Shown here: positions 37,434 through 53,726 of the stretch, piece by piece
Layout of the letters: every line of letters begins with the position of its first letter
Numbering within the stretch: the first letter of the stretch is position 1
NCBI GenBank assembly: GCA_903847975.1
Contig: CAINFC010000192.1
Location: forward strand, 1-60,215
Direction: 5' to 3'
Length of the DNA stretch: 60,215 nucleotides
Source of the DNA: an uncultured Acidobacteriota bacterium
GTDB lineage: Bacteria; Acidobacteriota; UBA6911; CAINFC01
Program-made: the position numbers and the translations under genes
Notes under the pieces: generated by a model
The model's input: only the letters and a program-made list of their open reading frames with translations
Databases searched by the model: none
Told to the model about the DNA's origin: nothing

Positions 37434-39491
37434 CTAGGCAGGATGGGTGAATACCGACTGGTGAATTCTTTCGGTCAATCGGATCATCCGGTTTGCCAGG
37501 CCATGCGCAAACGGATAGGTGATGTCCGTCCGGTGCCATTCCCCCCACAATTTTTCCAATTCCGCCGTCAGCTCCACATCCGGAATCCGGCGGAATTCAC
37601 GGACGAATCTTTTTCGGGCAGAGGGCTTGTGGTTCACGTAAATGCCCCGGGCTTCCAGAGAGAGCTTCACCAGCTCCATGGATTTCCAGATGACTTGAAA
37701 AGCCAGAGCATCCGCGGATGGAATAGGCTCCAGACCGACCGGAGTTTTGTGAAGGGATTCTGCATAGGCCGCGTCGCCCGACTGCAGATCGCGGCCCAGT
37801 TCTCCCACTTCCCGGTGGAATCGCGGCCATGCCTGCCGCGCCTCGCCTTTGAGCAGGTTCCTGTTCCCGTCCGGATGAGGGTATAAGCCCCGGGGGATTT
37901 TCCCCTTTCGACGGGCGTTTTGGACCAGTTTCAGGAGTTCGTCCACATGGACGGGCACAATCCTGCTGTCCGACAAACGGTCGAGCGCCTCCTGAATCCG
38001 GTCCTGAGGGACGGTGTGATTGACCAGGCAAAATATGAATAAAGGCCGGTTTGGATTGGCATCGATAAAATCACGCAGGGTACCGAGGACATCACTGTTG
38101 GCATGGATCCCTTCCCCGAAAAAGACGTATGGTTTGCAGCTGTCCAGATAATTCGCCTCGAACACCGACTCCCCCATCCCGCGTAAAAAGCCTTGACAAC
38201 GGGGCATGTGCCGGCAGAGAAGTGCGGGAAAGCCCGGAAGGTCGACTTCCTGCCACCAGTCCCGATCGTCCCAATTGGTGATATGCACGGCGGCCAGACC
38301 GCAGCGGCGCATGTACTCCTGGCTCAGGCGCAGAAAACGGGAGGGCTCCGGGTGCAGGTGCGGGTAGGTGTAGGTAGCCCCAGCCGGGCCCGCAACAAAG
38401 TAATCCGTCTCCAGCTGGTTTTTCAGGTAATAATCGACCACCCCGGGCATCAAATCATACGCCAGGGGCAGGAAACCCCAGTTGTATTTCAATTTTCCAT
38501 GAAGCGGATGCTTCCAATCCCTGACCGCCAGATCCAGCATAAACCAGCTGGCGTCTCCATCGGTGTCCATAAAAGCAATATAGACTTTCTCTTCCAGGGG
38601 GATATCCTTTTTTTCCGGCTGCCGGTATACCTGGCCGAAGGATGAACGAACGCTGGTATGCACCGTCAGGTTGGGTGTATGGAGGGAGCAGAGTCCAAAG
38701 TGCCCGTGCCGGGAGGACAGAGCGATGGCCTCATGTTCCTTGTCCCGGATGCAGTGCCATCCGAGGACGACCGTTTCCGGCGGATAGCTTTTGTAAATCT
38801 CCTCGACCAGCCGGTAATCTTCCTTGTCTCTTTCCGACGTAGACAAATCAAAGCAGAAAAGCTTGTGGGCGATCACGTAATCGCGGTTGGTCCAGGTGGA
38901 GGTGGGCCAGTGAGGTTCGTGGACGCAAAGCTGGGCCAGCAGGGTCGGGCAGCATTGGGGCCGCAGTTCGCTCAGTGCCCAGCGGTAGGCGCTGATTCTG
39001 TTTTCCGCAGGGCGGATGGCATCCAGACGGCTGGGGCGTAGAAAAGGTTTGACCAGGTGCTCCAGGTCCCGGCTGACAGGCAGAACACGGTGAATAGCCC
39101 CGAGCATGGTTGCCAGGTTCAGGGAGTGCGGTCGCTGCGGATCGTAAAGGACATACTCCTTCCATTCCGGGGCGGACATGGTCAGGAGCTCCGTCAGGCT
39201 TTTAACGACCAGGATCTGAAAGCCCGCTTCCTTCTGGTAAATGTCCAGCCAGAATTGATCCCGTTCCGACTCCAGCAGATAGATACGGGTATCCCGGCTG
39301 TTTACCAGTCCCTGCATGCAAGCCAGGAGCACTTTTTCATGAAAGCCGAAAGCATCGAGGCGGATTGCCCATATTTTTCCGGGGATGCCGCCATAAGGAA
39401 ATCGACTTTCCATGGTCGGTGACGGACCGCTCCGCGCGGGAAAGACTGCCGGGGAAAATCCGGCCGTTTTTAAAAAATCTCTGCGCTTCAT
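37434..39491 (-). CDS. GxGYxYP-domain protein with Tat signal
   Basis: The 685-residue product begins with a twin-arginine signal (MKRRDFLKTAGFSPAVFPA). The family N-terminal region is present (WAIRLDAFGFHEKVLLACMQ, GLVNSRDTRIYLLES). The GxGYxYP-type catalytic-like domain contains VYIAFMDTDGDASWFML, FLPLAYDLMPGVVDYYL and the motif PAGATYTYPHLHPEPSRFL, a variant of GxGYxYP. GxGYxYP proteins are regarded as putative glycoside hydrolases by context; no activity is established. The gene is convergent with the DUF4838 gene across a 95-nt spacer. Confidence 0.82.
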   Translation of the reverse strand: MKRRDFLKTAGFSPAVFPARSGPSPTMESRFPYGGIPGKIWAIRLDAFGFHEKVLLACMQGLVNSRDTRIYLLESERDQFWLDIYQKEAGFQILVVKSLTELLTMSAPEWKEYVLYDPQRPHSLNLATMLGAIHRVLPVSRDLEHLVKPFLRPSRLDAIRPAENRISAYRWALSELRPQCCPTLLAQLCVHEPHWPTSTWTNRDYVIAHKLFCFDLSTSERDKEDYRLVEEIYKSYPPETVVLGWHCIRDKEHEAIALSSRHGHFGLCSLHTPNLTVHTSVRSSFGQVYRQPEKKDIPLEEKVYIAFMDTDGDASWFMLDLAVRDWKHPLHGKLKYNWGFLPLAYDLMPGVVDYYLKNQLETDYFVAGPAGATYTYPHLHPEPSRFLRLSQEYMRRCGLAAVHITNWDDRDWWQEVDLPGFPALLCRHMPRCQGFLRGMGESVFEANYLDSCKPYVFFGEGIHANSDVLGTLRDFIDANPNRPLFIFCLVNHTVPQDRIQEALDRLSDSRIVPVHVDELLKLVQNARRKGKIPRGLYPHPDGNRNLLKGEARQAWPRFHREVGELGRDLQSGDAAYAESLHKTPVGLEPIPSADALAFQVIWKSMELVKLSLEARGIYVNHKPSARKRFVREFRRIPDVELTAELEKLWGEWHRTDITYPFAHGLANRMIRLTERIHQSVFTHPA

Positions 39492-39564
39492 AGAACTAAC
39501 CTTGACGATGGAATCATACGAAAAGGTATCACATCTCCATCCTTCCCGCCCTACAACATCACGG

Positions 39565-39655
39565 ACGTCTTCTTTCTTCCTTTCTGATCTTCCCGTCCTC
39601 CGGTGAGATGATTCAAATCACAGGAATGTAAGGAAGAGCGGGAAGAAAAGCGGAA
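39565..39655. repeat. Pyrimidine/purine-armed hairpin repeat, copy 2
   Basis: It matches 27279-27385 in order and composition: a CTTCTTTCTTCCTTTCTGAT arm, CTTCCCGTC, GTGAGATGA, CACAGGAA and an AGGAAGAGCGGGAAGAAAAG arm. TTCCCG near the centre can pair with CGGGAA on the purine side. Divergence from copy 1 shows that it is an old or degraded dispersed repeat. Confidence 0.6.
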
Positions 39656-39759
39656 GGGCCTGTCGAATGAAGAGGGTGACTTTTTACCGGTTTGTCTTTT
39701 CGGATGGACCCGCAAATGGTACGAGAAACACCCGAAAACAAACTTACAAAGAAAAGCCG

Positions 39760-39831
39760 TTTGGAGTACAGCCTTTAGGCTGCGCGCTGCGAGCGGAATT
39801 CCGCTTGTGGCATGCAAGCTTGAACTCCAAA
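39760..39831. repeat. Inverted-repeat-bounded palindromic element, 72 bp
   Basis: TTTGGAGT (39760-39767) is exactly inverted as ACTCCAAA (39824-39831). Between them lie smaller inverted pairs, AGCCT-tt-AGGCT and AGCGGAATTCCGCT. The structure resembles REP/BIME-type extragenic elements. It is just downstream (39864) of the DUF5916 stop on the minus strand and could affect 3' end formation. Confidence 0.6.
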
Positions 39832-39863
39832 TCCTTCCGTGAAGGAAAGGCTCTTGCCGATTC

Positions 39864-42068
39864 TCAGTTGAACCAGTAGCTGATCTTCATCACCAGCCCG
39901 CGGTTCTTGTTCCGGAAATCCCCGGGATAGGAGTTGTCGCTGTACACCAGGAACAGATCCGACACCGGGGCGAATCGCCACTGCAGCCGGACGCTCAGGT
40001 TCAGATTGTCGATCTGGTTGTTGTACTGCACGTAGGTGGTCAGAAAAAGCCTGTCCGTAAAGGTGAGATCCAGTCGCGGACCGATCAGAAAAAGGTCGGC
40101 ATCCTTGTAGGGTGCGGGCAGCAAAATCCGGTCGTAGGAGCCGGCAATGGCCAGGTTGGTGAACGGCTGGATGCGGTGGTAGAGCTTGCCGCTCAGGTTC
40201 CAGCGGGTGCCGCTGTAGTAGCCGCCGTAGCGTGTGCCGACTTCGTAGTTCAGCAGCTTGCGCGAATCGGAGGTGTAGGTTATGCCGGCGTCCCGGTTGT
40301 CGAACGTGGAACCGGACGGCAATTTACGCCCGCCGGTGTTGGTCGGGTCGAAGGGCGCCTGCAGACGGACATAGGTGTCGCGGGCCTCCAGCGAGAGCAT
40401 CTCCTTGCTCTGAAACTCGAACACGTAGCCAAGTTGTACCTGGCGGTCGCTCAGCCGCCCGTCCATATCGAGCAGGGACTGAACCTTGATGGTCGGGCCA
40501 TGACTGATCAGGCGGTCGGACTCCGGCAGGAACCGGTAGCCGAAGGATGGAGTCAGCTCCAGGTATCCCTTTCGGCGTATGTAGCCGACCTCGGCCAGGT
40601 AATCGGATCCCACGTAGGACTGGCTCATCCCGGCCGTCAGGGAGCGAGTGGCATAGTTCAGGGAGACGGCTTCCACGGCAGCCTCTTTCCCGCGCGATCC
40701 CGGGTAAAAAGACTGATGATAGAAGGCTTTCCCGGTCCAGCGGTTGTCGGCGCTGGACATGTTGTATTCCAGGCCGGCCACCTGGTTGCGACTGTTTCCC
40801 TGGAAATCCTCCCGGGGACCGGTCAACTCTTTGCTTACGGTGAAAAAGACGATGTTGGAGCGGGTGAACAGCTTCCGCTGCAGGGCGGCCACCGCAAAGT
40901 TGGAGGCCGGCACCCCGCCGCCGCTGTCCACCTGCATGTCCATCAGCCCGATGCGCCAGTTGCTGCTCAGGTTGCCGCTGAGCCGCGCACCGCCGATCAC
41001 GCGCTTGTCCAGCCCGATGCGCCGTGAGAAAAAGGGGCGCAGGTTTTCCGCGCCGAGATTGGCGAAGAGGTCGCTGTTTTCCAGGAAGAACCTTCTTTTT
41101 TCGGGGAAGAAGAGTTCGAAGCGGTCCAGGTTGGTCTGCTGGGTGTCGACATCCACCTGGGAATAGTCCGGATTCACCGTCAGGTCGAGATTCATGGAAG
41201 TCGACAGAATCATTTTGGCATCCATACCGCCGGTGAACCGGTAGGTGCTGTCTCCGGTCAGGCTGTTTTTGTAGGCTTTTCCGGAAAGATAGGGAATCAG
41301 CGAATAGCGCAGATGGGAGTCGCCGAGCGGCTGGTCCCAGAGCAGGGTGCCGGCATAGCCCAGATTGGCCGTCTGCAGGTGCCGGGGCATGGGCGCCCAG
41401 CTGGATTTTTCGTTGTTTTTCAGATCGAGGCGGCTGAAATTGATGCCCCATTCTTTCTCCCCGCCGCGGTACCGGATGCTGCGCAGGGGAATGGCAAACT
41501 CGGCATCCCAGTGCGTTTCATGGTTCTTCACCGCGGAGCGCCACTTGATGTCCCAGTCCAGGGAAACCAGCCCGCCATTGGCCTGCAGGCCGTCCCACTG
41601 CGCGCCCGCTGCGGAAACGCCGAAAGCGAAGCCGTTGGTCTGGTCGTTGTAGGTGTCGATGAAGACGATGAAGTTGTCGTTCTTCCCGAAGGAAAAATCC
41701 CGTCGAAGCGATTCGACCGGTCTTTTACCGGGAGTCGGGTCATGGCAGACGATGCCCAGATAGAGGTGGTCCTGGTCGTAGAGGATCCGCACTTCGGTGC
41801 GGGCCTTGGCAAAGCCGGTATCAGTGGGGGTCACCAGCCGGAAACGGTCCGCCACTTCCGAGGCGGCCCAGCTCTCTTCATCCAGAACTCCATCGATCAC
41901 CACCGGCTTTTCGATCCGGTGAATGTGGATCCGGTATTTTTCCCGGTTCACTCCTTTGGTCTGGGCCTCGGCGGCGGAACCGGACACGGCAAGCAGAAGC
42001 AGTCCGATGCGGAGCGCGGCTCCGCGGATCCTGCCGGGTAATTTCCAGGTGCCGCCCGGTTCCCTCAT
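39864..42068 (-). CDS. DUF5916 outer-membrane protein with CBM9-like N-terminal domain
   Basis: The 734-residue product has a signal peptide (RIGLLLLAVSGSAAEAQ). A CBM9-like domain covers about residues 40-230 (PVVIDGVLDEESWAASEVAD, LYDQDHLYLGIVCHDP, NDNFIVFIDTYNDQTNGFAF, HWDAEFAIPLRSIRYR). The rest is the DUF5916 barrel, with alternating aromatic strands and the family motifs NPDYSQVDVDTQQTNLDRFE, LFFPEKRRFFLENSDLF and FSRRIGLDKRVIGGARLSG. The terminal LVMKISYWFN is typical of outer-membrane barrels. Function of DUF5916 is unknown. AGGA lies 5 nt before ATG 42068; ATG 42113 would add 15 residues but weakens the signal peptide. Confidence 0.9.
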   Translation of the reverse strand: MREPGGTWKLPGRIRGAALRIGLLLLAVSGSAAEAQTKGVNREKYRIHIHRIEKPVVIDGVLDEESWAASEVADRFRLVTPTDTGFAKARTEVRILYDQDHLYLGIVCHDPTPGKRPVESLRRDFSFGKNDNFIVFIDTYNDQTNGFAFGVSAAGAQWDGLQANGGLVSLDWDIKWRSAVKNHETHWDAEFAIPLRSIRYRGGEKEWGINFSRLDLKNNEKSSWAPMPRHLQTANLGYAGTLLWDQPLGDSHLRYSLIPYLSGKAYKNSLTGDSTYRFTGGMDAKMILSTSMNLDLTVNPDYSQVDVDTQQTNLDRFELFFPEKRRFFLENSDLFANLGAENLRPFFSRRIGLDKRVIGGARLSGNLSSNWRIGLMDMQVDSGGGVPASNFAVAALQRKLFTRSNIVFFTVSKELTGPREDFQGNSRNQVAGLEYNMSSADNRWTGKAFYHQSFYPGSRGKEAAVEAVSLNYATRSLTAGMSQSYVGSDYLAEVGYIRRKGYLELTPSFGYRFLPESDRLISHGPTIKVQSLLDMDGRLSDRQVQLGYVFEFQSKEMLSLEARDTYVRLQAPFDPTNTGGRKLPSGSTFDNRDAGITYTSDSRKLLNYEVGTRYGGYYSGTRWNLSGKLYHRIQPFTNLAIAGSYDRILLPAPYKDADLFLIGPRLDLTFTDRLFLTTYVQYNNQIDNLNLSVRLQWRFAPVSDLFLVYSDNSYPGDFRNKNRGLVMKISYWFN

Positions 42069-42196
42069 GATTTCCTGTTTCTGCCCGCTGTGCGCATATC
42101 GTCGAGCAGGCATTATAACCTGAGGATGGCGGGGAATGGCGCCGTTGGCCAGCGCCTGGGAATGCGGGCCTTCTCGCCGCTAATACCATGAATAGC

Positions 42197-42229
42197 GCCG
42201 GCAAACGGAAGGGATTCCGTACTGCCGGC
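42197..42229 (-). terminator. Strong hairpin downstream of the efflux operon (terminator candidate)
   Basis: GCCGGCA and ACGGAA (42197-42210) pair with TTCCGT and TGCCGGC (42215-42229) across a 4-nt loop, a long nearly perfect stem. It begins 4 nt beyond the stop of the permease gene on the minus strand. No T-tract follows on that strand, so it may stabilise the 3' end and not be a classic intrinsic terminator. Confidence 0.45.
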
Positions 42230-42233
42230 CGGT

Positions 42234-43526
42234 TTACTCGAAGCGCAGGGCTTCCACCGGATCCAGCCGCGAGGCCCTCATCGCCGGAAGGATGCCGAAC
42301 GCCAGCCCCACCGCCGCGGAAACTCCGAAAGCCAGGGCGACCGAAGCCCCCGTCACCATGGTGCTCCACCCGGCATAGATGGCCACCACGCGGGAAACGC
42401 CGTATCCGAACAGGATGCCCATACATCCGCCGAGGAGGCTGATGATGACCGCTTCCAGGAGAAACTGCATCCCGACATCCCGCCGGCGCGCCCCCACGGC
42501 CCGCCGAACCCCGATCTCGCGGGTCCGCTCCAGCATGTTGGCCAGCATGATATTCATAATGCCGATGCCGCCGACCAGAAGGGATATGCCGGCAATACAG
42601 CCCATGACGATGTTGAAAATGCGCTGCGTCTGCTGGTTCTGCTCCAGGAGGGCGCGCGGAACCACAATGGAGAAATCCTCCGCCTTGCCATGGGTTGCCG
42701 CCAGCACCTGGCTGATCAGCACCGCGCCGGGCTTGAGGGTTGAGGCGTACTTCAGCCGGATGACCAGCTCGTCCAGTTCCGACTCCATCCGCTTGCGCTC
42801 GAATTTTTTCAAGGCCGTGGAAAGCGGAATATATATGTTGTCGCCGACATCCTGGATTTTGACCCCTTCGAATTCGCTCCTCGACAGGTTGGCGTCTTCC
42901 AGGACGCCGATCACCGTAAACCACAGCGTGTCAATTTTGACCTGCCCGCCGATCGGGGAATGGTAACCGAACAGTTTTTGCCTGGCCCGGGAGCCGAGGA
43001 TGCAAAACTGCTCGAAATCCCTTTGATCCACTTCGGAAAAATAGCTGCCTTCCGCCAGATCATAGCGCTCCAGCCGGAAATGGGAAGGACTGACGCCCAG
43101 GACGCTGGCCTCGTCGCATTTTCCCAGGAAAGAAAAAATCTGAAACGTTTTCACCCTTTTCCGGGCGGAGTAGGCTTCCATCTCCGGCAACACCGCCAGG
43201 ATCGCCTCCGCATCCCGCAGGGACAGCCCCAGAGATTCTTCCCTCACCTTTTTCAGATTTTCATCTTTGAACTCCCGGTCGGTGATGATGATGTTGCGCA
43301 GACCCATTCGGTCAATCAGGGCCAGGCTTTCCTTCTCTGCCCCGGCGCCGATGGAAAGCATGGCAATGACGGCTCCGACTCCGAAAATCATGCCGAGCAT
43401 GGTCAGCAGGGTCCGGAGAGTATGGACGCGCAGGCTGGCAAAAGCCAGATGCATCTCCGTGCCATACCGCACTGCCCGGACACGCGTCGAGGAGCGAAGG
43501 GTTTTTATAATTCCAGGAAGCTTCAT
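42234..43526 (-). CDS. MacB-type ABC transporter permease (FtsX family)
   Basis: The 430-residue permease belongs to the MacB/LolC/FtsX superfamily. It has a first membrane helix (LRTLLTMLGMIFGVGAVIAM), a large periplasmic MacB_PCD domain (about 65-290; LRNIIITDREF, ILGSRARQKLFGYHSPIGGQ, WFTVIGVLED), and three C-terminal helices with VMGCIAGISLLVGGIGIMNI, MLERTREIGVRRAVGARRRD and ILPAMRASRLDPVEALRFE. It is the last gene of a four-gene operon; its ATG overlaps the TGA of the adaptor before it (43523-43526). No ATPase subunit is encoded in the operon or fused to this protein, so one must come from elsewhere. Confidence 0.93.
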   Translation of the reverse strand: MKLPGIIKTLRSSTRVRAVRYGTEMHLAFASLRVHTLRTLLTMLGMIFGVGAVIAMLSIGAGAEKESLALIDRMGLRNIIITDREFKDENLKKVREESLGLSLRDAEAILAVLPEMEAYSARKRVKTFQIFSFLGKCDEASVLGVSPSHFRLERYDLAEGSYFSEVDQRDFEQFCILGSRARQKLFGYHSPIGGQVKIDTLWFTVIGVLEDANLSRSEFEGVKIQDVGDNIYIPLSTALKKFERKRMESELDELVIRLKYASTLKPGAVLISQVLAATHGKAEDFSIVVPRALLEQNQQTQRIFNIVMGCIAGISLLVGGIGIMNIMLANMLERTREIGVRRAVGARRRDVGMQFLLEAVIISLLGGCMGILFGYGVSRVVAIYAGWSTMVTGASVALAFGVSAAVGLAFGILPAMRASRLDPVEALRFE

Positions 43527-44833
43527 GGGGTTTTTTTCGAAGCGGATCCGGCAGCCGTCTCCCTGTGCAGATCCGGCGGATGGAGCGCCAGGATTTGACC
43601 GGCCTGCAGGCCGTTTGTCACTACCACCTGGACCAGGTCTCCCTGTCCCAGGCGAACCGGAACCGGCTCAAATTTTGCCGAAGTTTTGCGCACATAGGCA
43701 AAATGGCTGTAATCCCTGTTGACCAGGGCACTTCGGGGAACCACCAGAGCGGATTTGATCTCACCCGGCCGGATCTCCGCCTTCAGCTTGATCCCCGGCC
43801 TCATCCGCCTGGGATCCGTTTGATCCAGGGATATCACCGTCTGGAAATACTTGACCGGCGAATCCCGGTCGAGGGGCCGAGCCAGCTTGTCGATGGTCTT
43901 AACCCTGCCGCTGAAGGTCTGCCCGGGGAAAGGATCCAGTGCGATGACCGCAGGGGACCCGATGCGCAGTTCCCCGGCATCCTTCTCCAGGACAAAACAT
44001 TTGGCCTCCATGGTGTCCGGATTCACGAGGTTGAACAGGGTGGTGCCGACCCAGACCACACGGCCGGGCATGAAGGCAAAGCTTTCCGTAAACCAGCCGG
44101 GATCGTTGTGCACGATAATTCCGGGGGCCGGCGCCAGAAGCTTCAGGGATGCGAGCCCTTTCCCGGCCTGGGCTATTTTTTCGTCCGCCTGTTTTTTTTC
44201 AAGCAGCAGGATCGCCTCCTCCAGCGAGTATATTTTTCCTTTCAATTCCAGGCGCGCATCGGCAAAAACTATTTTCCGCTGGCTGTGGCTTCGGTCCAGC
44301 TCTCCCTCGATCATTTCCCGCCGGGAATAGATGGTTTCATCCCGGGGCATAAACTCCTTGATCTTCTGCAGCTCCAGCTCGGCGATGCGGCGGTCCCTGA
44401 GGATATCGGCTCTTTCCACCTGCCCGGCCGCTTCCCCCCGACTGATTTTCTGGCTGGCGATCTGCAGGCTGGACTCATGCTCCGCGCTCTGGGTCTGCAG
44501 CTCCGCGGGATCGAACTCCACCAGCACGTCTCCCTTCCGCACCCGCCGCCCGTCCGGCACGACGGACGCAATGCGCAGCTGGTTGACCGGCACGCTGGGC
44601 ACCGCAATGGTAGTGGTTTCCGCCGACTGCAACTCCCCGGAAGCCGGGATCCGCAACACGAAGTCTCGTGGTTCGAGCCGCACGGTCAGCGGCGCCGCCA
44701 GGTCCGCAGCCGCGAACCAGGCGGCGTACCCCGCATAGACGCCGAGAACCGCTGCGGCGATGAGGCCGGCCAGTAACAGATGGCCGGCCAGCGGCTTTTT
44801 ACGGATGCGAATCGGTGTTATTGTTTTTTCCAT
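43523..44833 (-). CDS. HlyD/RND-type periplasmic adaptor (membrane fusion protein) 3
   Basis: The 436-residue adaptor has one N-terminal membrane anchor (LAGHLLLAGLIAAAVLGVYA). A biotinyl-lipoyl-like and beta region around residues 55-105 includes FVLRIPASGELQSAETTTIA and VVPDGRRVRKGDVLVEFDPA. A helical hairpin covers about 105-215 (AEHESSLQIASQKISRGEAA). The beta-barrel and membrane-proximal domains follow (APAPGIIVHNDPGWFTESFA, QTDPRRMRPGIKLKAEIRPG, VVTNGLQAGQILAL). Adaptors bridge the inner-membrane pump and a TolC-like channel. ATG 44833 lies within the end of the preceding adaptor gene (16-nt overlap), and its TGA overlaps the permease ATG, so the genes are translationally coupled. Confidence 0.9.
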   Translation of the reverse strand: MEKTITPIRIRKKPLAGHLLLAGLIAAAVLGVYAGYAAWFAAADLAAPLTVRLEPRDFVLRIPASGELQSAETTTIAVPSVPVNQLRIASVVPDGRRVRKGDVLVEFDPAELQTQSAEHESSLQIASQKISRGEAAGQVERADILRDRRIAELELQKIKEFMPRDETIYSRREMIEGELDRSHSQRKIVFADARLELKGKIYSLEEAILLLEKKQADEKIAQAGKGLASLKLLAPAPGIIVHNDPGWFTESFAFMPGRVVWVGTTLFNLVNPDTMEAKCFVLEKDAGELRIGSPAVIALDPFPGQTFSGRVKTIDKLARPLDRDSPVKYFQTVISLDQTDPRRMRPGIKLKAEIRPGEIKSALVVPRSALVNRDYSHFAYVRKTSAKFEPVPVRLGQGDLVQVVVTNGLQAGQILALHPPDLHRETAAGSASKKTP

Positions 44834-46083
44834 GGCATGTAACGCCGGGCAATTCTTTCCTCGCCCCGCAGGCCCGAGCGGACCACCACTTCCGCGCCAT
44901 TGGCCTCCCCGAGCAGAACGGGGCGATCTGTCCACCCGGTTTCCCCCCAGACCTGGACCACCGTTGCCCCCGGTACCGTCCGGACCGACTCCAGGGGAAC
45001 GGCGACAATATCGCTTACCCTTTGGGTTTCTATCCGGGCTCTCACGCTCATCGCCGGCCTCATGATCGCCGTGTCCAGCTGATCCAGTGCGATCTGCACT
45101 TCCAGGATCCGCATTTTGCTGTCATAGGATTTCGGGCGCACCAGGGTGCCGATCCTGCGTACCACGCCGGAGTAGAGCCTTCCCGGGAAGGCATCCATGA
45201 CCACATCCGCTCTCTGCCCCACCCGGATGCGGCTCATATCGACTTCCGGAACGAAGGCATCGGCCACAATCGTCTTCAGATCGGGTATTTCCAGAATGGA
45301 CAGGCCGGACCAGCAGTTCTCCCCCACCCGGAACCGCTCTCCGTTCCATCTTTGCTTGTAGACCACAACGCCGACCCGATCGGAATTTACCTTAAATCCT
45401 TCCATACCCCGGAGAATTTCGTTGACTTTGTTCTCGGCGCGGGCCTTTTTGCTGGCAATAATGTTCAGCCCGGCTATCGCTGATTTCCGGTGCCATTCGA
45501 TCCGCTCTTTCAAGGCTTCCACTTCCCGAAGGGCCTGCTCCCGTGCCAGCCGGTCCAGCTCTCTATCCCGAACCGACAGGAGCTCCGCACTGACCCCTTC
45601 CTGCTTGAGCTTCAGCTTGGCATAGCGGTTTTCGGTCTCCGCAAGACGCGCCTTCCACTCCTGCTGTTCCAGCTCGATCTGTGCCTCGGTTTTCTCCATT
45701 TCCTTGACGGCCTGGTCCAGCTCGTTCCGATACCCCAGGAGATCATTCTGAATTTTCTGGGCATCGAAGCGGAGCAGCATATCTCCCGGCTTCACCTCTT
45801 TCCCCTCGGCCACCATGTCGACAATCTGAAACCTCCAGTATTCGCCAAACATCGGGGGAGCGGAAAAGTTCTGCACCGATGTAGCCCGCAGGACACCCGG
45901 TGCATCCACCCGGAAACTCATCGTCTTCCGGCCGGGGATGAGGGAATCCTCCAGACGATCCGCCCTTCCGCGCAGCAGCGAAAAGGAGGGGGACAGGAAA
46001 AGAGCCAGAAGCGCTCCCCCTCCGATCAGGATGGCAGTGCCGGCCACCAGACACAGCCTTTTCGTTTCCCGTGCAGGTACCAT
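44818..46083 (-). CDS. HlyD/RND-type periplasmic adaptor (membrane fusion protein) 2
   Basis: The 421-residue adaptor has an N-terminal anchor (LCLVAGTAILIGGGALLALF). Its lipoyl-like half-motifs are SFRVDAPGVLRATSVQNFSA and VAEGKEVKPGDMLLRFDAQK. A long coiled-coil hairpin (about 105-230) is rich in Glu, Lys and Leu, for example YRNELDQAVKEMEKTEAQIE and LKERIEWHRKSAIAGLNIIA. The barrel region has PEVDMSRIRVGQRADVVMDA and AIMRPAMSVRARIETQRVSD, and the C-terminus has VVVRSGLRGEERIARRYMPW. It is second in the operon, 60 nt after the first adaptor gene, and overlaps the third by 16 nt. Sequence differs well from the other two adaptors, so it is not a recent duplicate. Confidence 0.9.
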   Translation of the reverse strand: MVPARETKRLCLVAGTAILIGGGALLALFLSPSFSLLRGRADRLEDSLIPGRKTMSFRVDAPGVLRATSVQNFSAPPMFGEYWRFQIVDMVAEGKEVKPGDMLLRFDAQKIQNDLLGYRNELDQAVKEMEKTEAQIELEQQEWKARLAETENRYAKLKLKQEGVSAELLSVRDRELDRLAREQALREVEALKERIEWHRKSAIAGLNIIASKKARAENKVNEILRGMEGFKVNSDRVGVVVYKQRWNGERFRVGENCWSGLSILEIPDLKTIVADAFVPEVDMSRIRVGQRADVVMDAFPGRLYSGVVRRIGTLVRPKSYDSKMRILEVQIALDQLDTAIMRPAMSVRARIETQRVSDIVAVPLESVRTVPGATVVQVWGETGWTDRPVLLGEANGAEVVVRSGLRGEERIARRYMPWKKQ

Positions 46084-46143
46084 TTCGCTGTTCCTGATTT
46101 TGTCACTCCTGCCCCTGGGGCGGCGTTGAATAGGGCGAGCAGC

Positions 46144-47448
46144 CTATTCGAGCCGGCCTCCGGGGAGTCCATGCCCGTTCGCCAGGATCCGATCCCCCTC
46201 CCGCAGGGCCCCGTTGCCGGCGACGGCAAACCGCTTGGGATCGGAAAAAAGAACGGTAACAGCCACCGGGCGCAGTCTTCCTTCCCCCTCCAATCGGAGA
46301 ACCGAAGCGGTATCGCCTTCCCAGCGCACTGCGGAACGCGGTACGGTCAGCTCGCTTCCCGTTTCCTCGGCGACCAGCCCGACCTGGGCCGACATGCCCG
46401 GCTTCATGATTTCGGTCACGGTACGGTCCAGGGTAATGTACGCCTTGAAAATTTTGACCTTATCCATTCCGCCGGCCTTTACCGCTGTCTGGGATATTTC
46501 CCGGACCGATCCGGGTATTTCCACCTCGGGATAGGCGTCGAGTCGCACCGTCGCCTTCTGCCCGACGGCGATTCGGGGCCCCTCCGTTTCGCTGACTTCC
46601 GCCAGCACCTCCATTTCCCGCAGGTCGGGCAGCAGAACCAGAGGAATTCCTCCCCAGACGACATCCCCGACCTGGAGTTTTCTTCTTTCCTGCCAGTGGT
46701 CCCCGTAAATGACCATGCCCTCGAAGGGTGCGCGGATCGTCATGCTCTCCATGCTCTGGTTGGCCAACTGCAGCTGGACTTCCACTTTTTGCTTTTCCAT
46801 GGCCTTGACGTTCTGTTCGGAAGCGAATTCCTTTTTCTTTTTTGCAATTTTGTCCTGCTGGTTCTCGTATTCCGTTCGCGCCTTATCCAGGGCCAGCTGG
46901 TTGTCCTGGTACTCCCGCCTGGCGATCAGCTCCGCGGGGGCCCTGGCCTTGATCCTGGATTGCTCCAGGGTCAGCCACAGGCGGCTGAGCTCAATCTCCA
47001 TTTCACGCAGCGCAGCCTCCTGTGCGGATTTCGTTTTGACCATTTCGTTTTCTGCCGCCAGGATCTTTTCCCTGGCGTCCTTGATCCGGGTGAGCACGGC
47101 CCCGCTGTCCAGTTCCACCAGCTTCTCTCCGGGGCGAACCAGGCTTCCTTCCGGCGGGAGATAGGTGATTTTGGTTTCTTCCCAGGTGAAGCAGAAGAAA
47201 GAGCGAAAGCGGACCGCACGCAGCTCTCCGCCGAGCAGGAGAGTCTTATTCAGATTTTCCCTGCGCACCAGGAAGGTCGGCTCGTTTTCCCGGGCATTCG
47301 ACCCGGCGATGACCTCCGAAGCGCTCTGTACGGCCGGGACAGAGGAACCGGACCGGTACAGGACCCAAACGGCCAGGCTGCCACATCCGAGCACCAGGAC
47401 GGCAACCGCCAGACGGATCACTCCTTTTGGACAGCTCCCCTTGCGCAT
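46144..47448 (-). CDS. HlyD/RND-type periplasmic adaptor (membrane fusion protein) 1
   Basis: The 434-residue adaptor opens the operon. It has an N-terminal anchor (GVIRLAVAVLVLGCGSLAVW) and lipoyl-like segments (FFCFTWEETKITYLPPEGSL and VRPGEKLVELDSGAVLTRIK). A long coiled-coil hairpin spans about 105-235 (KARAPAELIARREYQDNQLA, YENQQDKIAKKKKEFASEQN). Barrel and membrane-proximal domains follow (APFEGMVIYGDHWQERRKLQ, RIAVGQKATVRLDAYPEVEI, EIMKPGMSAQVGLVAEETGS). A GGGAGG site lies upstream of ATG 47448 and a promoter with TATAAT at 47489-47484 lies in the divergent spacer with the TonB receptor gene. Confidence 0.9.
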   Translation of the reverse strand: MRKGSCPKGVIRLAVAVLVLGCGSLAVWVLYRSGSSVPAVQSASEVIAGSNARENEPTFLVRRENLNKTLLLGGELRAVRFRSFFCFTWEETKITYLPPEGSLVRPGEKLVELDSGAVLTRIKDAREKILAAENEMVKTKSAQEAALREMEIELSRLWLTLEQSRIKARAPAELIARREYQDNQLALDKARTEYENQQDKIAKKKKEFASEQNVKAMEKQKVEVQLQLANQSMESMTIRAPFEGMVIYGDHWQERRKLQVGDVVWGGIPLVLLPDLREMEVLAEVSETEGPRIAVGQKATVRLDAYPEVEIPGSVREISQTAVKAGGMDKVKIFKAYITLDRTVTEIMKPGMSAQVGLVAEETGSELTVPRSAVRWEGDTASVLRLEGEGRLRPVAVTVLFSDPKRFAVAGNGALREGDRILANGHGLPGGRLE

Positions 47449-47483
47449 TCCGGTCTTTTCCTCCCCTGCAAGGACTTTCCGTC

Positions 47484-47511
47484 ATTATACTTCCACCTCA
47501 CGCTTCAACAA
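47484..47511 (-). promoter_or_regulatory. Promoter of the three-adaptor efflux operon
   Basis: On the minus strand a perfect TATAAT (47489-47484) is preceded by TTGTTG (47511-47506) with a 16-nt spacer. The start would be about 28 nt before ATG 47448. The -35 box matches the consensus only at TTG. Confidence 0.5.
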
Positions 47512-47568
47512 AAGGATCGCCACGGAATTCCACAACAGTATGTTCCTATTGACTTTGACCCTAACTGA

Positions 47569-47583
47569 AGTTAATAGTTAACT
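47569..47583. promoter_or_regulatory. Possible operator (AGTTAA-TAG-TTAACT inverted repeat)
   Basis: AGTTAA and TTAACT form a perfect 6-bp inverted pair around a 3-bp centre, and a partly overlapping pair TAACT/AGTTA lies directly to the left (47562-47573). It is placed between the efflux operon and the TonB receptor gene, just downstream of TTGACT (47549-47554), where a regulator could act on the receptor promoter. No regulator gene is adjacent. Confidence 0.3.
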
Positions 47584-47642
47584 CATAAGTCGGATCCCTT
47601 TTCAGGGAACCTTTGTCAAGGTTTGCTTCGCCAGGAGGTTTT

Positions 47643-50600
47643 ATGACGACACCGTTTCGGCACCTTTGCCTTTTGCTAATGACCTTGCTGTTTCTTACCA
47701 CCTGCCTGTATTCCCAGTCTTTTACGGCCGCGCTGCGCGGCGTTGTGATGGATGCCTCCGGGGCCGTGGTTCCCGGAGCCAAGGTCACCATCACCGAGAC
47801 CGAGCGCAACATCCCGCATCCGGTCACCACGGATGAAGCCGGACGCTACAACGCCACGGCGCTCCCGCCGGGCCAGTACACCATCACGGTGGAGGCCCAG
47901 GGGTTTAAAAAACAGAGCCGGCCGCCTTTCCAGCTGCTGGTCCAGCAACAGGCGACCATTGACTTCCGCCTGGAAGTCGGCGACGTCAACACAACGGTTA
48001 CCGTTTCCGGTACCGCGGAACTGCTCAACACCACTATCGCCAATCTGGGACAGGTAGTGGAAAACAAGTACATCATTTCGCTGCCCAACATCGGCCGGAA
48101 CGCCATGGGGCTCACCTACCTGACCCCCGGCGTGGTCGGCTCCGGCGGTCGCGCCAACTCGGACAACAACACCAACTTCGTGGCCAACGGCTCGCGCAAC
48201 TCCACCTCGGACGTCCTCCTGGACGGGGTCACCGTGGTAACCGTGGAGCAGAATTCCGGGATCACCGACCTTAAGTTCAGCCCGTCGGTGGACGTAGTGC
48301 AGGAATTCAAGATGCAGACCAATTTCTTCAGCGCCGAATACGGCCAGACCGGCGGCGCGGTGGTCAACATGGTCACCAAGTCCGGGACCAATGATTTTCA
48401 CGGAACGGCCTATTACTTTCTGCGCCATTCCGACCTGAATTCCAACGCCTGGTTCTCCAACCGCTCCGGCCGTGTCCGTCCCTATTACCGCCGGGACCAG
48501 TTCGGCGGAGTGCTCGGGGGGCCGATCATCAAGGACCGGACTTTCTTTTTCGGCTCCTTCGAGCGAACCAAGGCCAAAAGCCCGTTCAGCCAGACCTATA
48601 CCTTCCCCACCCTGCTGCAGCGCGAGGGGGACTTCAGCAAGACCTTTAATTCCTCCGGTCAGCTGATGACCATCTACAATCCCTTCGACACCTTCGTCAA
48701 TTCCGCCGGCAACATCGAACGGCGGCCGTTTGCCGGCAACATCATTCCCAAAGCCATGATGGATCCCATTGCCCTGAAGGCTCTGGCCTATTTCCCGAAG
48801 CCCAACCAGGCCGGGGCCCCCTACACGGAAACCAACAACTGGTTCAATGAAGGGATCAACCGGAGCAGCAGCATGCAGACCACCATCAAGGGGGATCACA
48901 ACTTCAGCGAGCGCAGCCGGATCACCGGGCGATACAGCTACAACCGCGGGGTGGGAACGCCGGTCAACCTGTTCGGCGAAGGCGATCCGTCCTATACCTA
49001 CAACGACGGCCCGAACCAGAGCACGGCGCACGCCGCCGTCGCCGAGTTCACCCGGGTGCAGAACGCCACCTTTATCTGGTCGGTGCGCTACGGCCTGACC
49101 TATTCCACTTATTTCCGGAACCCGATGGTTTCCGGCTTCGACCTGACCACGCTCGGCTTCCCCAAATACATGAAGGACAACGCCACCATCCCGGTATTTC
49201 CCACCATCGCCCCGGAGGGCTATGCCGACATCGGCACCGAAGGCTGGCTGATCATGGACCGGCAGGAAGGGGTGCACCACATCTCCTCCTCGGCCAGCAA
49301 GTTCCTCGGGGCCCACAGCCTGAAGTTCGGCGGCGAGTATCGCAAGAATTTTCTGGACTATGCCCAGCCGGGCTATCCTTCCGGCCAGTTCGCCTTCGCC
49401 CGGGGCATCACCTGCAAGGACCGCTTTTCCTGTCCGGGCAACGAGGGCAACGGCCTGGCCACCATGCTGCTCGGGTGGTGGACCAGCAACCAGTTCCACA
49501 TCGATCCCAAGGCCTTCACCCGATCGGCCTACTGGGGCTTTTTCATTCAGGACGACTGGAAGGTCACCCGCAAGCTGACCGTCAACCTGGGCTTCCGCTA
49601 TGACTTCGATGTCCCCCGCTGGGAAACCGAGAACCGGCAGAGCTACTGGGATCTCGATGCCCAGTCTCCGGTAGTGGCTACCGGCTACAACACCAAGGGA
49701 GTTTTCCGCTTTGTCAACGATGATCGCCGCTCCCCGTTTAATAAGGACATGAACAACTGGCAGCCGCGGATCGGTTTCGCTTACGCGATCAACAGCAAGA
49801 CCTCCGTCCGCGCCGGATACGGTCTCTTCTTCCAACTGAGCCGCGCCACAGTGTTCGGGCACACCGGTGCCGGATTCAACGTCAATTCCACCTCCAACTC
49901 TTCGCTCGACTCCAACGCCACGCTGTATGCCAAGCTGGTTAACCCTTACCCCGACGGCATGCTGCTGCCCCCCGGAAAATCCCTGGGGGACAAGACCTTC
50001 ATTGGCCTGGGTGCCGGCACCATTCTGGGCGCCAACAACCGCAACCCGGAATACCACTCCTGGAACCTCTCGTTCCAGAGGGAAATCGGATGGAAATCCG
50101 TACTGGAAGTGAACTACACCGGCAGCCGCGGCACGCATCTTTTCCTGCCGGTGACCACCCTCTCTCCGCTCCACCCGCAGTACTGGCCCCTCGGACGAAC
50201 CAAGCTGACCTCGGCGGTGCCGAATCCTTTTTACGGCCAGATCACCGATCCCAAGGCAACCAACCTGAAAAACCCGACCATCCAGATGTACCGCCTGCTG
50301 CGGCCCATGCCGCACTTCGACGGTACCAGCGTCGGCACGGCAGAACCTCCGCGGGCGGATTCCAACTATCACGCCTTGCAGGTCAAGTGGGAAAAGCGCT
50401 TTTCCGATGGCCTGACCACCCTGGTTCACTACACCTGGGCCAAGATGATCGACGACGCTTCCTACGGGTCGGGCAACTACAGCTGGCTGGGCGGCGGATC
50501 CTCCCTGCAGAACATCTGGAACCTGCGCGAAGAGCGAGGGCTTTCCTCCCATGACATTTCCCATCGCGCCATCATCACCTTCTCCTACCAGCTCCCCTTC

Positions 50601-51098
50601 GGCCAGGGAAAACCGATCGGAACCAATGTCAGCCGGCTCAAAAACCTGCTGATAGGGGGGTGGGAACTGAGCGGCCTGACAACCTTCTCGGCCGGCATGC
50701 CGCTGCAGGTCACGCAGTCGGGCGGCAGCATCTGGGACGGTACGCAGCGCCCGGATCTGATCGGCGATCCCAAAACCACGGGAAAAATCCAGGACCGCCT
50801 GAACAACTGGTTCAATGCCGCCGCTTTCTCCAAGCCGGCCACCGACGTTCCGGGAACGGCGCCGCGCAACCTCACCTACCGCGGTCCGGGCATGAAGATG
50901 TTCGACGCCGCCCTGTTGAAAAACTTCCAGATTACCGAGATCAAGCGGATCGAGTTCCGCCTGGAAGCCCAGAATGCCCTGAACCACCCGGTTTTCAGCG
51001 ATCCGAGCGGCAGCTACGGCTCCACCAGCTTCGGGCAGATCACCGGCACCAAGGTGGGCAATCGCAACGTGCAGCTCGGCTTCAAGTTCTACTTCTGA
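47643..51098 (+). CDS. TonB-dependent receptor, Oar-like, with carboxypeptidase-regulatory-like domain
   Basis: The 1151-residue outer-membrane receptor has a signal peptide (LLLMTLLFLTTCLYSQSF). A carboxypeptidase-regulatory-like domain spans about 24-105 (AALRGVVMDASGAVVPGAKV, TDEAGRYNATALPPGQYTIT). The plug region contains VVENKYIISLPNIGRNAMGL and SVDVVQEFKMQTNFFSAEYG, then QTGGAVVNMVTKSGTNDFHG at the start of the barrel. The long barrel ends with VGNRNVQLGFKFYF, the terminal Phe of outer-membrane proteins. Such receptors are abundant in Acidobacteriota and take up large substrates with TonB energy. AGGAGG precedes ATG 47643. A strong intrinsic terminator follows at 51132, so it is probably transcribed alone. 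Adjacent GH9 and GH-A genes suggest a glycan substrate. Confidence 0.94.
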   Translation: MTTPFRHLCLLLMTLLFLTTCLYSQSFTAALRGVVMDASGAVVPGAKVTITETERNIPHPVTTDEAGRYNATALPPGQYTITVEAQGFKKQSRPPFQLLVQQQATIDFRLEVGDVNTTVTVSGTAELLNTTIANLGQVVENKYIISLPNIGRNAMGLTYLTPGVVGSGGRANSDNNTNFVANGSRNSTSDVLLDGVTVVTVEQNSGITDLKFSPSVDVVQEFKMQTNFFSAEYGQTGGAVVNMVTKSGTNDFHGTAYYFLRHSDLNSNAWFSNRSGRVRPYYRRDQFGGVLGGPIIKDRTFFFGSFERTKAKSPFSQTYTFPTLLQREGDFSKTFNSSGQLMTIYNPFDTFVNSAGNIERRPFAGNIIPKAMMDPIALKALAYFPKPNQAGAPYTETNNWFNEGINRSSSMQTTIKGDHNFSERSRITGRYSYNRGVGTPVNLFGEGDPSYTYNDGPNQSTAHAAVAEFTRVQNATFIWSVRYGLTYSTYFRNPMVSGFDLTTLGFPKYMKDNATIPVFPTIAPEGYADIGTEGWLIMDRQEGVHHISSSASKFLGAHSLKFGGEYRKNFLDYAQPGYPSGQFAFARGITCKDRFSCPGNEGNGLATMLLGWWTSNQFHIDPKAFTRSAYWGFFIQDDWKVTRKLTVNLGFRYDFDVPRWETENRQSYWDLDAQSPVVATGYNTKGVFRFVNDDRRSPFNKDMNNWQPRIGFAYAINSKTSVRAGYGLFFQLSRATVFGHTGAGFNVNSTSNSSLDSNATLYAKLVNPYPDGMLLPPGKSLGDKTFIGLGAGTILGANNRNPEYHSWNLSFQREIGWKSVLEVNYTGSRGTHLFLPVTTLSPLHPQYWPLGRTKLTSAVPNPFYGQITDPKATNLKNPTIQMYRLLRPMPHFDGTSVGTAEPPRADSNYHALQVKWEKRFSDGLTTLVHYTWAKMIDDASYGSGNYSWLGGGSSLQNIWNLREERGLSSHDISHRAIITFSYQLPFGQGKPIGTNVSRLKNLLIGGWELSGLTTFSAGMPLQVTQSGGSIWDGTQRPDLIGDPKTTGKIQDRLNNWFNAAAFSKPATDVPGTAPRNLTYRGPGMKMFDAALLKNFQITEIKRIEFRLEAQNALNHPVFSDPSGSYGSTSFGQITGTKVGNRNVQLGFKFYF

Positions 51099-51131
51099 AG
51101 ACCGGTAAGACCGGCTCAAGGTAGTCCGAGC

Positions 51132-51164
51132 GGGGGCGGGCCGCGGCCCGCCCCCAAGGTTTTT
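51132..51164 (+). terminator. Intrinsic terminator of the TonB receptor gene
   Basis: A 24-nt perfect GC palindrome (51132-51155, GGGGGCGGGCCG and its complement) is followed after 4 nt by TTTTT (51160-51164). It lies 34 nt beyond the receptor stop codon. Confidence 0.85.
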
Positions 51165-51221
51165 CTGCCAGCCAGAAAAGAAGTTTTTTTCTGTCACCCG
51201 CTTTTCGCCAGGAGGCGGATC

Positions 51222-53687
51222 ATGATTCTTGGTTTTATGTCTTTTGTAATTCGGACATTCCTTTCTTTTCTTGTCCCGGCTTTTTTATCCCTGCAGGCGG
51301 TATCCGCCCAGGCCCGTATCACCCTGAACCAGCAGGAGTATTTTGAAGCTCCCGGGTTTTCCTTTCACCCGTACCATAACGATTACCGGGCTGGTTCCAT
51401 GTCCGGTCTGCAGATGGTCCAGAACGGGGAGCGGCTGCTCGATTCCGGCGACCTCTACCTGGAGGGCAAGCCCGGGACCCCGGCTCCGTCCTGGTCGGCA
51501 ACCGGGCGGAAGGTGGATCCCGCCGCCGGCACGGTCACCGTAACGGGCCAGGTGGAAGGGATGGGCGAATACCGGCTGAACGTTCGCACCGACGGCCGGA
51601 AAATATTCGTCACCCTGGTGCTGCCGCCCGCTCTGGACTGGCAACGGCTCCAGGAGGCCGGGCTGCGGTTCGCCTTTTTCCCCGGCGCCTATTACGGAAA
51701 GTCCTTCCTGGGAGAATCGGGCAGCGGAATTTTCCCCCGGCAATATACCGGGCAAGGCCAATTGCTGTCGGGCTCCCGGCGGATTTCCGTGGCCCCGGAG
51801 GACCCGGCGGCAGCCGTCTCCTTTTACCGGGACAACGGAATGATCCGGCTGCAGGATAACCGCCGCTCCAGCCCCCAGCCCTGGTTCAGCCTGCAGGCTC
51901 CGGCCGAAAGCAGCCGGCAGACGGAAGTCCACCTGGAGATCACTCCGCGGTTGCAGGCCGATTATAAGCGACCTCCCGTACTGGGCGTTTCCCAGGTGGG
52001 ATATCATCCGAATCAGCCCAAGCGGGCCATCCTGGAACTGGATCCGCAGGAGCCCGCCGGCGGAGAAATGAGGATCTGCCGGCTGGGGCTGGACGGCGAA
52101 AAGAAGCCGGTGGCCTCCGGACCGGTAAAGCCCTGGGGCAACTTTCTGCGCCGTCCGTACGCGGTCTTCGATTTTTCTGCCATCCGCGAACCTGGCGTGT
52201 ATGTGGCTGAATACGCGGGGCAGAGCGTCGGGCCATTTCGCATCGCGGAGGATGTCTACGAGCGCGCCTGGCAGCCGGCCATCGCCTATTTCCTGCCGAT
52301 CCAGATGTGCCATGTCGCCGTGAAGGAGGGGGGGCGCACCTGGCACGGGGCGTGCCACCTGGACGACGCCCGTCAGGCTCCCGCCGGAAAGAAATACATC
52401 GACGGTTATGTGCAGGGCGAGCGGGAGACAAAATATGCGGACCATGAAAAAATCCCGGGCCTGGACTGGGGTGGCTGGCACGATGCCGGCGATCACGACC
52501 TCCCCTCGGGAAGCACGGCTTCCACGACTCTTCCCCTGATTTTTGCCGAAGAGGAATTCCAACCGGTCCTGGACGACTACACCATTAAAAAGGCAGAGCG
52601 CGAGGTGCTGCTGCATGTTCCGGACGGCAAATCGGATGTCCTGCAGCAGATTGAGTACGGTACTGAATCTCTGGTTCTTAATTTCCGCGTCGCCGGGCAC
52701 ATCCTGCCGGGAATTATCGAACCCACCGGCAGGCAGTACGGCCACCTGGGAGATCCGGTGAATGTAACCGACAACAAGCCGTGTGCCCGGCCTGGCGAGG
52801 AATGCGACGACCGCTGGGTCTTTACCAACCGGAACACCGGGCTGCAGTACCAGGTTGCCCAGACGCTTGCCGCCGCCGCGCGGGTGCTGGGGAAATTCAA
52901 TCCGGACCTGGCAGCGGAAGCTCTTTCGACCGCCCGGCAGCTCTTCCGATACGAGCAGGAGCATGCCCCGGTTTACGCTCCCAACTCTTATGTTCCCCGC
53001 GATTCCGGCTTCCGCACCCAGGAAATCGCCGCTGCCGCAGAACTTCTGATCACCACCGGCGGGAAAGAGTTTGCTTCGCGTCTTTCCGCCCTGCGCCCGC
53101 AGGTCGAGCAGATGACCCCGCAGGCTTTCGGCGGTGGGGCCGGCGTGGCCCTGGTGCGCGCCCTGAACAACCTGGAGGACCCGGCCCTGCGGTCTGCCGT
53201 GGAGGCCAAGGCAGCGGAATTTGCCGCCTGGCAGAAAAAAGCCCTCGCCGGAAATCCTTACGGGGTCCCCTATCCGGCGCAGGTGGGCACCTTTGACGGC
53301 ACCCACAGCACCATCGTCTGGGGCTCGGGATGGACGTTTCAGAGCGCCGCCGTACAGAACTACTTCTTCCACAAGCGCCTGCCGTCCCTGTTCGGCAAGG
53401 AGCTCAACTTTGCCGTGGCCGATTACGTTCTGGGGGTGCATCCGGCCAACAACCAGAGCCTGGTCTCGGGCGTGGGAGGCCAGTCGGCACTGGTGGCCTA
53501 CGGGACCAACCGCGCCGACTGGTCGCACATTCCCGGCGGCGTGATCTCCGGGCCATCCCTGATCCGCCCCGATTTCCTGGAGCTGAAGCATTTCCCGTTT
53601 CTCTGGTACCAGACCGAGTACGTCATCCACGGCGCGGCCACCTACGTCTTCGACCTGCTGGCCGCCCAGGCCCTTTCCCGCCCGTAA
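51222..53687 (+). CDS. Secreted glycoside hydrolase family 9 (endoglucanase type)
   Basis: The 821-residue enzyme has a signal peptide (FLVPAFLSLQAVSAQA). An extra N-terminal beta-sandwich (about 30-245) of unknown role precedes the CelD-type Ig-like domain (about 250-340; PPVLGVSQVGYHPNQPKRAI, EPGVYVAEYAG). The GH9 barrel (about 345-815) has DWGGWHDAGDHDLPSGSTAS, where the DAGD Asp pair (near 421) activates water. The C-terminal acid Glu lies in WYQTEYVIHGAATYVFDLLA near residue 799. VADYVLGVHPANNQSLVSGV is the family's second motif. GH9 enzymes cut beta-1,4-glucans or related glucans; exact substrate is not readable. A good AGGAGG site precedes ATG 51222, and the next gene follows after 39 nt. 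Confidence 0.9.
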   Translation: MILGFMSFVIRTFLSFLVPAFLSLQAVSAQARITLNQQEYFEAPGFSFHPYHNDYRAGSMSGLQMVQNGERLLDSGDLYLEGKPGTPAPSWSATGRKVDPAAGTVTVTGQVEGMGEYRLNVRTDGRKIFVTLVLPPALDWQRLQEAGLRFAFFPGAYYGKSFLGESGSGIFPRQYTGQGQLLSGSRRISVAPEDPAAAVSFYRDNGMIRLQDNRRSSPQPWFSLQAPAESSRQTEVHLEITPRLQADYKRPPVLGVSQVGYHPNQPKRAILELDPQEPAGGEMRICRLGLDGEKKPVASGPVKPWGNFLRRPYAVFDFSAIREPGVYVAEYAGQSVGPFRIAEDVYERAWQPAIAYFLPIQMCHVAVKEGGRTWHGACHLDDARQAPAGKKYIDGYVQGERETKYADHEKIPGLDWGGWHDAGDHDLPSGSTASTTLPLIFAEEEFQPVLDDYTIKKAEREVLLHVPDGKSDVLQQIEYGTESLVLNFRVAGHILPGIIEPTGRQYGHLGDPVNVTDNKPCARPGEECDDRWVFTNRNTGLQYQVAQTLAAAARVLGKFNPDLAAEALSTARQLFRYEQEHAPVYAPNSYVPRDSGFRTQEIAAAAELLITTGGKEFASRLSALRPQVEQMTPQAFGGGAGVALVRALNNLEDPALRSAVEAKAAEFAAWQKKALAGNPYGVPYPAQVGTFDGTHSTIVWGSGWTFQSAAVQNYFFHKRLPSLFGKELNFAVADYVLGVHPANNQSLVSGVGGQSALVAYGTNRADWSHIPGGVISGPSLIRPDFLELKHFPFLWYQTEYVIHGAATYVFDLLAAQALSRP

Positions 53688-53726
53688 TCGCCACCGTACG
53701 ACCCCGGAGCAAGAACGGGATTCCCT

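Follow-up and report, generated by a model that had tools for sequence, protein, structure and literature searches.

Four described systems come closest to the locus analysed here. The first is MacAB-TolC of E. coli and relatives, an assembly of composition MacA6MacB2TolC3 according to the accessible part of PMC5985334; PDB entries 5nik and 5nil together contain 12 MacA and 4 MacB chains. The permease of the locus is related to that of MacAB-TolC over its whole length, with MacB as its best PDB profile match, and its adaptors are likewise related, with best profile matches of MacA type and a structural model of the third adaptor that matches MacA. The locus differs in carrying three adaptor genes instead of one, in an ATPase that is not fused to the permease and usually not adjacent to it, and in adaptors whose RLS tip motif does not exceed chance. 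The second system, the RND pump TriABC-OpmH of P. aeruginosa, also has more than one non-identical adaptor per transporter. These adaptors are thought to share one ring, in a 3:(3+3):3 assembly (accessible parts of PMC13328181 and PMC4338810). However, TriABC-OpmH is built on an RND trimer with two adaptors, whereas the cassette described below encodes three adaptors and a permease of ABC type that would be expected to dimerise; the cassette is known from its genes, and a ring is proposed for it by analogy. PDB entry 6vej contains three copies of a 695-aa RND adaptor chain of two named parts, which we take to be TriA-TriB.

The third system, the ADOP duplicated permeases (TIGR03434), is acidobacterial, and we know of no ATPase encoded near these proteins. 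They share with the cassette permease a MacB-like character (match of 124.8 bits), but the latter lies far under the family cut-off of 622.3 bits and so outside the family, is not a duplicated permease of ~800 aa, and comes with three adaptors. In the fourth, Spr0693-0694-0695 of S. pneumoniae, the permease is on its own chain, as it is here, and the corresponding structure 5xu1 is among the profile matches. It differs in having a single adaptor gene and an ATPase in the same three-gene operon, the assignment of adaptor and ATPase to individual genes being in part our assumption. The available text of PMC5768738 describes it as a MacAB-like pump encoded by a three-gene operon.

The window, that is, the whole stretch of 60,215 nucleotides analysed here (contig CAINFC010000192.1 of an uncultured Acidobacteriota bacterium), carries on its minus strand an operon transcribed in the order A1-A2-A3-P: three HlyD/MacA-type adaptors followed by a MacB-type permease (Table 1). 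Both HlyD_D23 and HlyD_3 are found in every adaptor and both MacB_PCD and FtsX in P, all exceeding the curated Pfam cut-offs. The start of A3 was taken to be the ATG at 44833; the ORF list had the GTG at 44935. The original prediction of three HlyD-type adaptors and one MacB-type permease is confirmed for all four genes, and its description of the adaptors as clearly distinct is borne out by their pairwise identity of 25-29%. Its description of the genes as coupled by overlaps holds for A2/A3 (16 nt) and A3/P (4 nt, ATGA) and fails for A1/A2, which do not overlap and are separated by a 60 bp gap. The absence of an ATPase was also correctly reported for this operon: a PF00005 scan found none beside it, the nearest ABC gene detected in the window lying ~27 kb off on the opposite strand. 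Terminator-like sites number 8 against 7.2 in shuffles, and promoter-like sites 4 against 1.3, three of these four being located inside genes, and such sites were set aside. The surroundings of the operon (window 37434-55559) are carbohydrate-related, with a GxGYxYP protein, a CBM9/DUF5916 protein, and GH9 and DUF5060 proteins; a large outer-membrane beta-barrel receptor gene in this neighbourhood is divergent from A1.

Table 1. Genes of the three-adaptor operon, in order of transcription
Gene	Product	Position in window	Strand	Basis
A1	HlyD/MacA-type periplasmic adaptor, 434 aa	46144..47448	-	ORF; Pfam HlyD_D23 4.9e-10, HlyD_3 2e-9; A1 lineage in trees
A2	HlyD/MacA-type periplasmic adaptor, 421 aa	44818..46083	-	ORF; Pfam HlyD_D23 1.1e-10; A2 lineage in trees
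A3	HlyD/MacA-type periplasmic adaptor, 436 aa	43523..44833	-	Sequence; Pfam HlyD_3 4.2e-10 (on longer ORF); AlphaFold model
P	MacB-type permease without ATPase domain, 430 aa	42234..43526	-	Pfam MacB_PCD 3.6e-32, FtsX 2.6e-21

Two further A1-A2-A3-P copies are present in the same genome, on contigs C31 and C252. A genome-wide PF00005 scan detected no ABC domain on C31 and only one on C252, some 70 kb from the operon. All three junctions of the C31 copy are 4-nt overlaps. Between the three copies the permeases are 54-55% identical and the adaptors 28-35%, and the copies are placed in different branches of the trees, which indicates that they are old. Acquisition of the window copy by transfer is possible.

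Conservation was assessed at the scale of the phylum, a query for 150 genomes of the window's order having returned the window's own genome only. A scan scoring no more than 7 candidates per genome detected permeases at E up to 1e-60 in at least 112 of 247 phylum genomes. Full-length matches fall mostly into two sets, one at ~43% identity or more and the other at 33-41%. When 60 loci of the first set were examined together with the window operon and its two paralogues, 61 of the 63 were found to have three upstream adaptors on the same strand, and the other two leave the contig. In a broader collection of 121 distinct loci, which includes the best 80 of 362 named matches (143 permease loci minus 22 with an identical matched permease sequence), three adaptors lie upstream of the permease in every one of the 112 uncut loci, the insert-split pieces of one ORF being scored as a single adaptor; in the nine loci with fewer than three, the contig stops at most 621 bp upstream. 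Seven later loci (L197, L216-L220 and a second pair in L296) were not included in the totals; of these, L197 and L216 show the full set of three adaptors, and the other five are cut by contig or fetched-sequence ends. The other MacB-like permeases of the examined loci (65 as a raw count, not de-duplicated and with contig ends unchecked) are accompanied by one adaptor in 56 cases, none in seven, two in one and three in one, this last case being unopened. The adaptor profiles were built by position from 61 loci, so that independent evidence comes from the trees and not from the A1-A3 labels of the profiles. For the first adaptor of Bryobacterales cassettes, the general adaptor profile is often the best match.

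As none of the 112 uncut loci departs from three adaptors, the arrangement is well beyond chance. The three-adaptor cassette is a real, conserved and phylum-wide variant of MacAB-type export, defined by its three dedicated adaptors. The gene order seen in the window recurs in other genomes, and the original prediction's own counter-argument, that only one adaptor gene might prove to be conserved, does not apply. No description of a three-adaptor ABC system was found in the titles and abstract openings of the open-licence papers listed, a weak indication that this MacAB-type variant is undescribed.

The titles of the cassette records include Blastocatellia, Thermoanaerobaculia, Vicinamibacteria, Holophagales and Bryobacterales. 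Nearly all of the best 80 of 362 named matches are titled Acidobacteria or a group therein; L250 is given as just 'bacterium' and L270 as 'Acidimicrobiia'. The L270 record (VFZE01000014.1) holds a Bryobacterales-like cassette, and its title or binning may be wrong. The window copy is nearest to the operons of L058 and L059, which belong to another class (permease identity 69-70%), and is nearer to these than to the two other copies of its own genome.

The best PDB matches of the permease family profile are the MacB entries 5lil, 5gko and 5nik; the alignment with 5lil covers positions 3-409 of 411 (E 4.5e-73). The domain order is that of MacB-type (type VII) permeases, with the MacB periplasmic core domain ahead of an FtsX domain at the C-terminus, and the fused or adjacent ATPase of type VII systems is absent at the window operon and its two paralogues. 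The single MacA-type adaptor of MacAB-TolC is likewise replaced by three in all uncut loci, a comparison of genes and not of oligomers. Two motifs do not vary among 26 permeases: LTMLGMIFGV and ERTxEIGxRRxxGA, the latter presumably corresponding to the helix through which MacB couples to its ATPase. This renders very improbable a permease that is degenerate or works without ATP hydrolysis, a possibility raised by the 107 loci (of 112) that lack a MacB-type ATPase next to the operon: some orthologous operons do include such an ATPase, and the permease is better conserved between the three copies of the window's genome than any adaptor.

The trees show that A1, A2 and A3 are separate lineages. 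With adaptors from 24 loci and 12 outgroup adaptors, 20 loci give a single clade for each of A1, A2 and A3 (SH-aLRT 95, 98 and 100), and the remaining four have A1, A2 and A3 clades of their own, grouped together. A careful tree of 10 loci of the first kind and seven of the second, Bryobacterales included, agrees with this result. Here the second trio is one clade (99/95), each position within it being supported at 100/99, and the positions of the first trio are supported at 96/95, 88/96 and 100/99; the branch separating the first trio from everything else is weak (75/89), so that a first trio excluding the outgroup is weakly supported. Topologies that unite the two sets at A1, at A2 or at A3 are each rejected (AU p 0.003, 0.002 and 0.004), with p-values that concern same-position joins only and are optimistic because the positional clade tests were picked after the first tree. 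The permeases of both sets form one clade (98/91), located next to five permeases, four of them with one adaptor and no ATPase. Since the two adaptor sets stay apart at each position, yet both sets of permeases form one clade, the trio either originated on two occasions or was rebuilt within one branch. It would be telling if both had converged on exactly three adaptors, with long branches and the after-the-fact choice of test as caveats. Bryobacterales A3 proteins carry a glycine-rich insert of ~200-220 aa in the C-terminal half (L271, aa 333-533; L305, aa 332-548), and L291 has a similar break in A2 instead of A3.

At 15 loci two neighbouring adaptors are encoded in one ORF: A1-A2 in 14 (of which two are truncated by the contig edge) and A2-A3 in one (L259). 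Where A1 is fused to A2, the second adaptor matches its profile only from beyond the N-terminal anchor, and at least four of the fused proteins have a shortened A1 half ahead of A2. AlphaFold predicts two sets of hairpin and beta domains for the 776-aa A1-A2 protein of L258 (mean pLDDT 86.7, with a low-confidence N-terminus); row placement in the folded alignment is unchecked, and two other alignments, one with single A1 rows on the wrong half and one shallow, were set aside. The model of the window A3 (mean pLDDT 85.3) comprises an N-terminal helix, hairpin helices at 110-160 and 171-228, and beta domains. For both models the best structural match is MacA in MacAB-TolC, at modest TM-scores of ~0.6 by target. 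Membrane anchor, alpha-hairpin and beta domains, the hallmarks of an adaptor, are all found when Pfam, these two models and the PDB matches are considered. The L258 fusion is predicted to have a MacA-like fold, which is informative on the single chain and not on ring geometry.

Other proteins are encoded in or near some cassettes. A 789-aa ORF without a Pfam match lies between the A1-A2 fusion and A3 at L063 (10601-12970, minus strand), and a gap of about this length occurs at the same place in L220 and L234. Directly upstream of A1 is a secreted-looking protein of ~400 aa with a conserved SPLPDWLDxG motif at L028 (11178-12458, minus strand), L060 (5716-6891) and L065 (13264-14457). Its relatives flank the cassette at 11 loci; the L028 member has no Pfam match.

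A MacB/LolD-type ATPase is adjacent to the operon in five of the 112 loci (L063, L080, L099, L100 and L102) and also in L197 and L219, outside that count. The original prediction had stated that an ATPase adjacent in orthologous operons would speak against it; this is the case in a minority of loci and not in the majority. Because of this minority, the lack of an ATPase does not define the cassette: a missing adjacent ATPase is common but secondary. An ABC gene 119 bp from the operon at L072 is of another type, judging from its sequence, and was left uncounted.

In the window's genome the protein nearest to the L063 ATPase shares 63% identity with it, and those that follow share 48-49%. It is encoded on contig C168 (L146 9436-10137), behind a fourth adaptor and with no permease, and is an orphan LolD/MacB-type ATPase of the kind that the original prediction proposed to look for. 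The C168 pair (L146 7941-10137), an adaptor with a canonical RLS motif and a MacB/LolD-type ATPase without a permease, is recurrent in the phylum. A match at E up to 1e-72 is present in 55 of 56 cassette genomes searched, the one lacking it being 77% complete. The closest ATPase neighbours an adaptor without a permease in 20 of the 56 and another MacB-like permease in 22; it stands alone in nine, belongs to the cassette in four and is missing in one, many of the flanks in this tally being just 1.5 kb. Within the window's class it is found beside an adaptor without a permease in 14 of 15 cassette genomes. Outside this class it lies beside another MacB-like permease in 22 of 41, and the cassette would there depend on sharing it. 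In five genomes of the second cassette type (two of them assigned by permease identity only), the ATPase is alone within ~4 kb.

Where the ATPase belongs to the operon, it is the sole match at E up to 1e-72 in G050, G152, G046 and G003; G231 has three. On a tree of 84 ATPase rows, 79 of them different, two of the operon ATPases, those next to P in G050 and G024, nest in the clade of permease-less ATPases and the others are found elsewhere. The operon-linked ATPases do not form one clade and require five changes, so operon linkage changed more than once. A specific association of the adaptor-ATPase pair with cassette genomes is unsupported: 44 of 50 genomes without such a permease (20 without a permease match at E 1e-60 and 30 with a more distant kind only) also have a close relative of the ATPase, which counts against a specific ATPase link. 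Ten of these non-cassette loci were examined; six have an adaptor and ATPase without a permease in the flank, three have a permease too, and one is cut off. It is likely that an ATPase encoded elsewhere is shared with the cassette permease. This sharing, one of the meanings first suggested for the locus, is favoured for the class to which the window belongs and for cassettes of the second type and is ambiguous elsewhere.

On balance, we consider it somewhat probable that the cassette encodes a MacAB-type system with a mixed ring, in which A1, A2 and A3 are each present twice on a dimer of P, together with an ATPase encoded elsewhere. A fixed mixed ring is proposed because MacAB-TolC has three adaptors per MacB protomer. 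Three dedicated adaptors that differ from one another, each in two copies, would take the place of the six identical MacA subunits, with one A1-A2-A3 set per permease protomer, giving (A1-A2-A3)2 on the P dimer. Two copies of a MacB/LolD-type ATPase from elsewhere in the genome, most likely the C168 protein in the window's genome, would bind the conserved coupling region of P and drive export, and transport would be outward by the MacB mechanism. We infer the composition of the ring by analogy with TriABC, and infer also the ATPase pairing and the direction of transport. Among the three meanings initially suggested, mixed adaptor rings gain most and are partly supported, since the three adaptors are retained as a set, adjacent ones are fused at some loci, and the number per permease is that of MacA6:MacB2. 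The 15 natural fusions provide indirect support for different adaptors in one ring; fused dimeric adaptors are cited in support of ring models in the accessible part of PMC4446572.

The TolC-docking motif is RxxxLxxxxxxS according to the available text of PMC3391258. Counted with T allowed, and in 110 of the 112 loci (two failed a length filter), it occurs in the A1, A2 and A3 hairpins in 3, 15 and 9 cases against 12.4, 15.6 and 15.8 in shuffles, which is not above chance; it is present in 21 of 32 adaptors beside an ATPase against 3.05 in shuffles. The RLS motif at the hairpin tip of MacAB-TolC adaptors is thus not enriched in A1, A2 and A3, and this weakens the notion that the system works like MacAB-TolC. 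The search for TolC genes that had been suggested for this genome yielded 13 TolC-family (OEP) genes (26 matches), none of them on contigs C192, C31, C252 or C168. Both observations would fit a periplasmic assembly with no TolC-docked conduit, perhaps with another outer-membrane partner, in which P and a shared ATPase move envelope material; LolCDE-type and Gram-positive MacAB-like systems work without TolC. However, long hairpins are kept in the A3 and fused A1-A2 models, the structures most similar to these models are those of MacA and AcrA in complexes with TolC, and TolC-binding adaptors without an identifiable RLS motif are reported in the accessible part of PMC4446572, so that its absence does not exclude TolC. 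An assembly without any TolC conduit seems to us rather unlikely; the three adaptors either dock TolC in another way or use another partner.

Alternatively, A1, A2 and A3 could each form their own homohexamer on the same permease, linking it to a different outer-membrane channel or substrate. The 13 OEP genes, encoded away from the three operons, would offer such partners, and the conserved residues differ among the A1, A2 and A3 families. Nevertheless, single losses would be expected of alternative adaptors and all three are kept in every uncut locus, neighbours share one ORF at 15 loci, and the A1, A2 and A3 clades branch much alike. As alternatives need neither such co-retention nor fusion, the suggestion of different partners for different channels, which was also part of the original prediction, is disfavoured, and we judge it improbable.

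The mixed ring may be part of a wider picture, which we put forward tentatively as possible: a C2-symmetric exporter with its own gene product for each adaptor position, a shared remote ATPase and an outer-membrane link other than RLS-TolC, whose trio came together, or was rebuilt, on at least two occasions. The MacAB-TolC permease has two-fold symmetry and its adaptor ring six members, which places three identical adaptors per protomer in different surroundings. If the mixed ring is correct, each adaptor position could be labelled, mutated or deleted separately. Moreover, the principle embodied by TriABC, in which the number of adaptor genes equals the number of adaptors per transporter protomer, would extend from RND to ABC transporters. 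The separate ATPase also raises the question of how permeases share one ATPase in a large and little-studied phylum.
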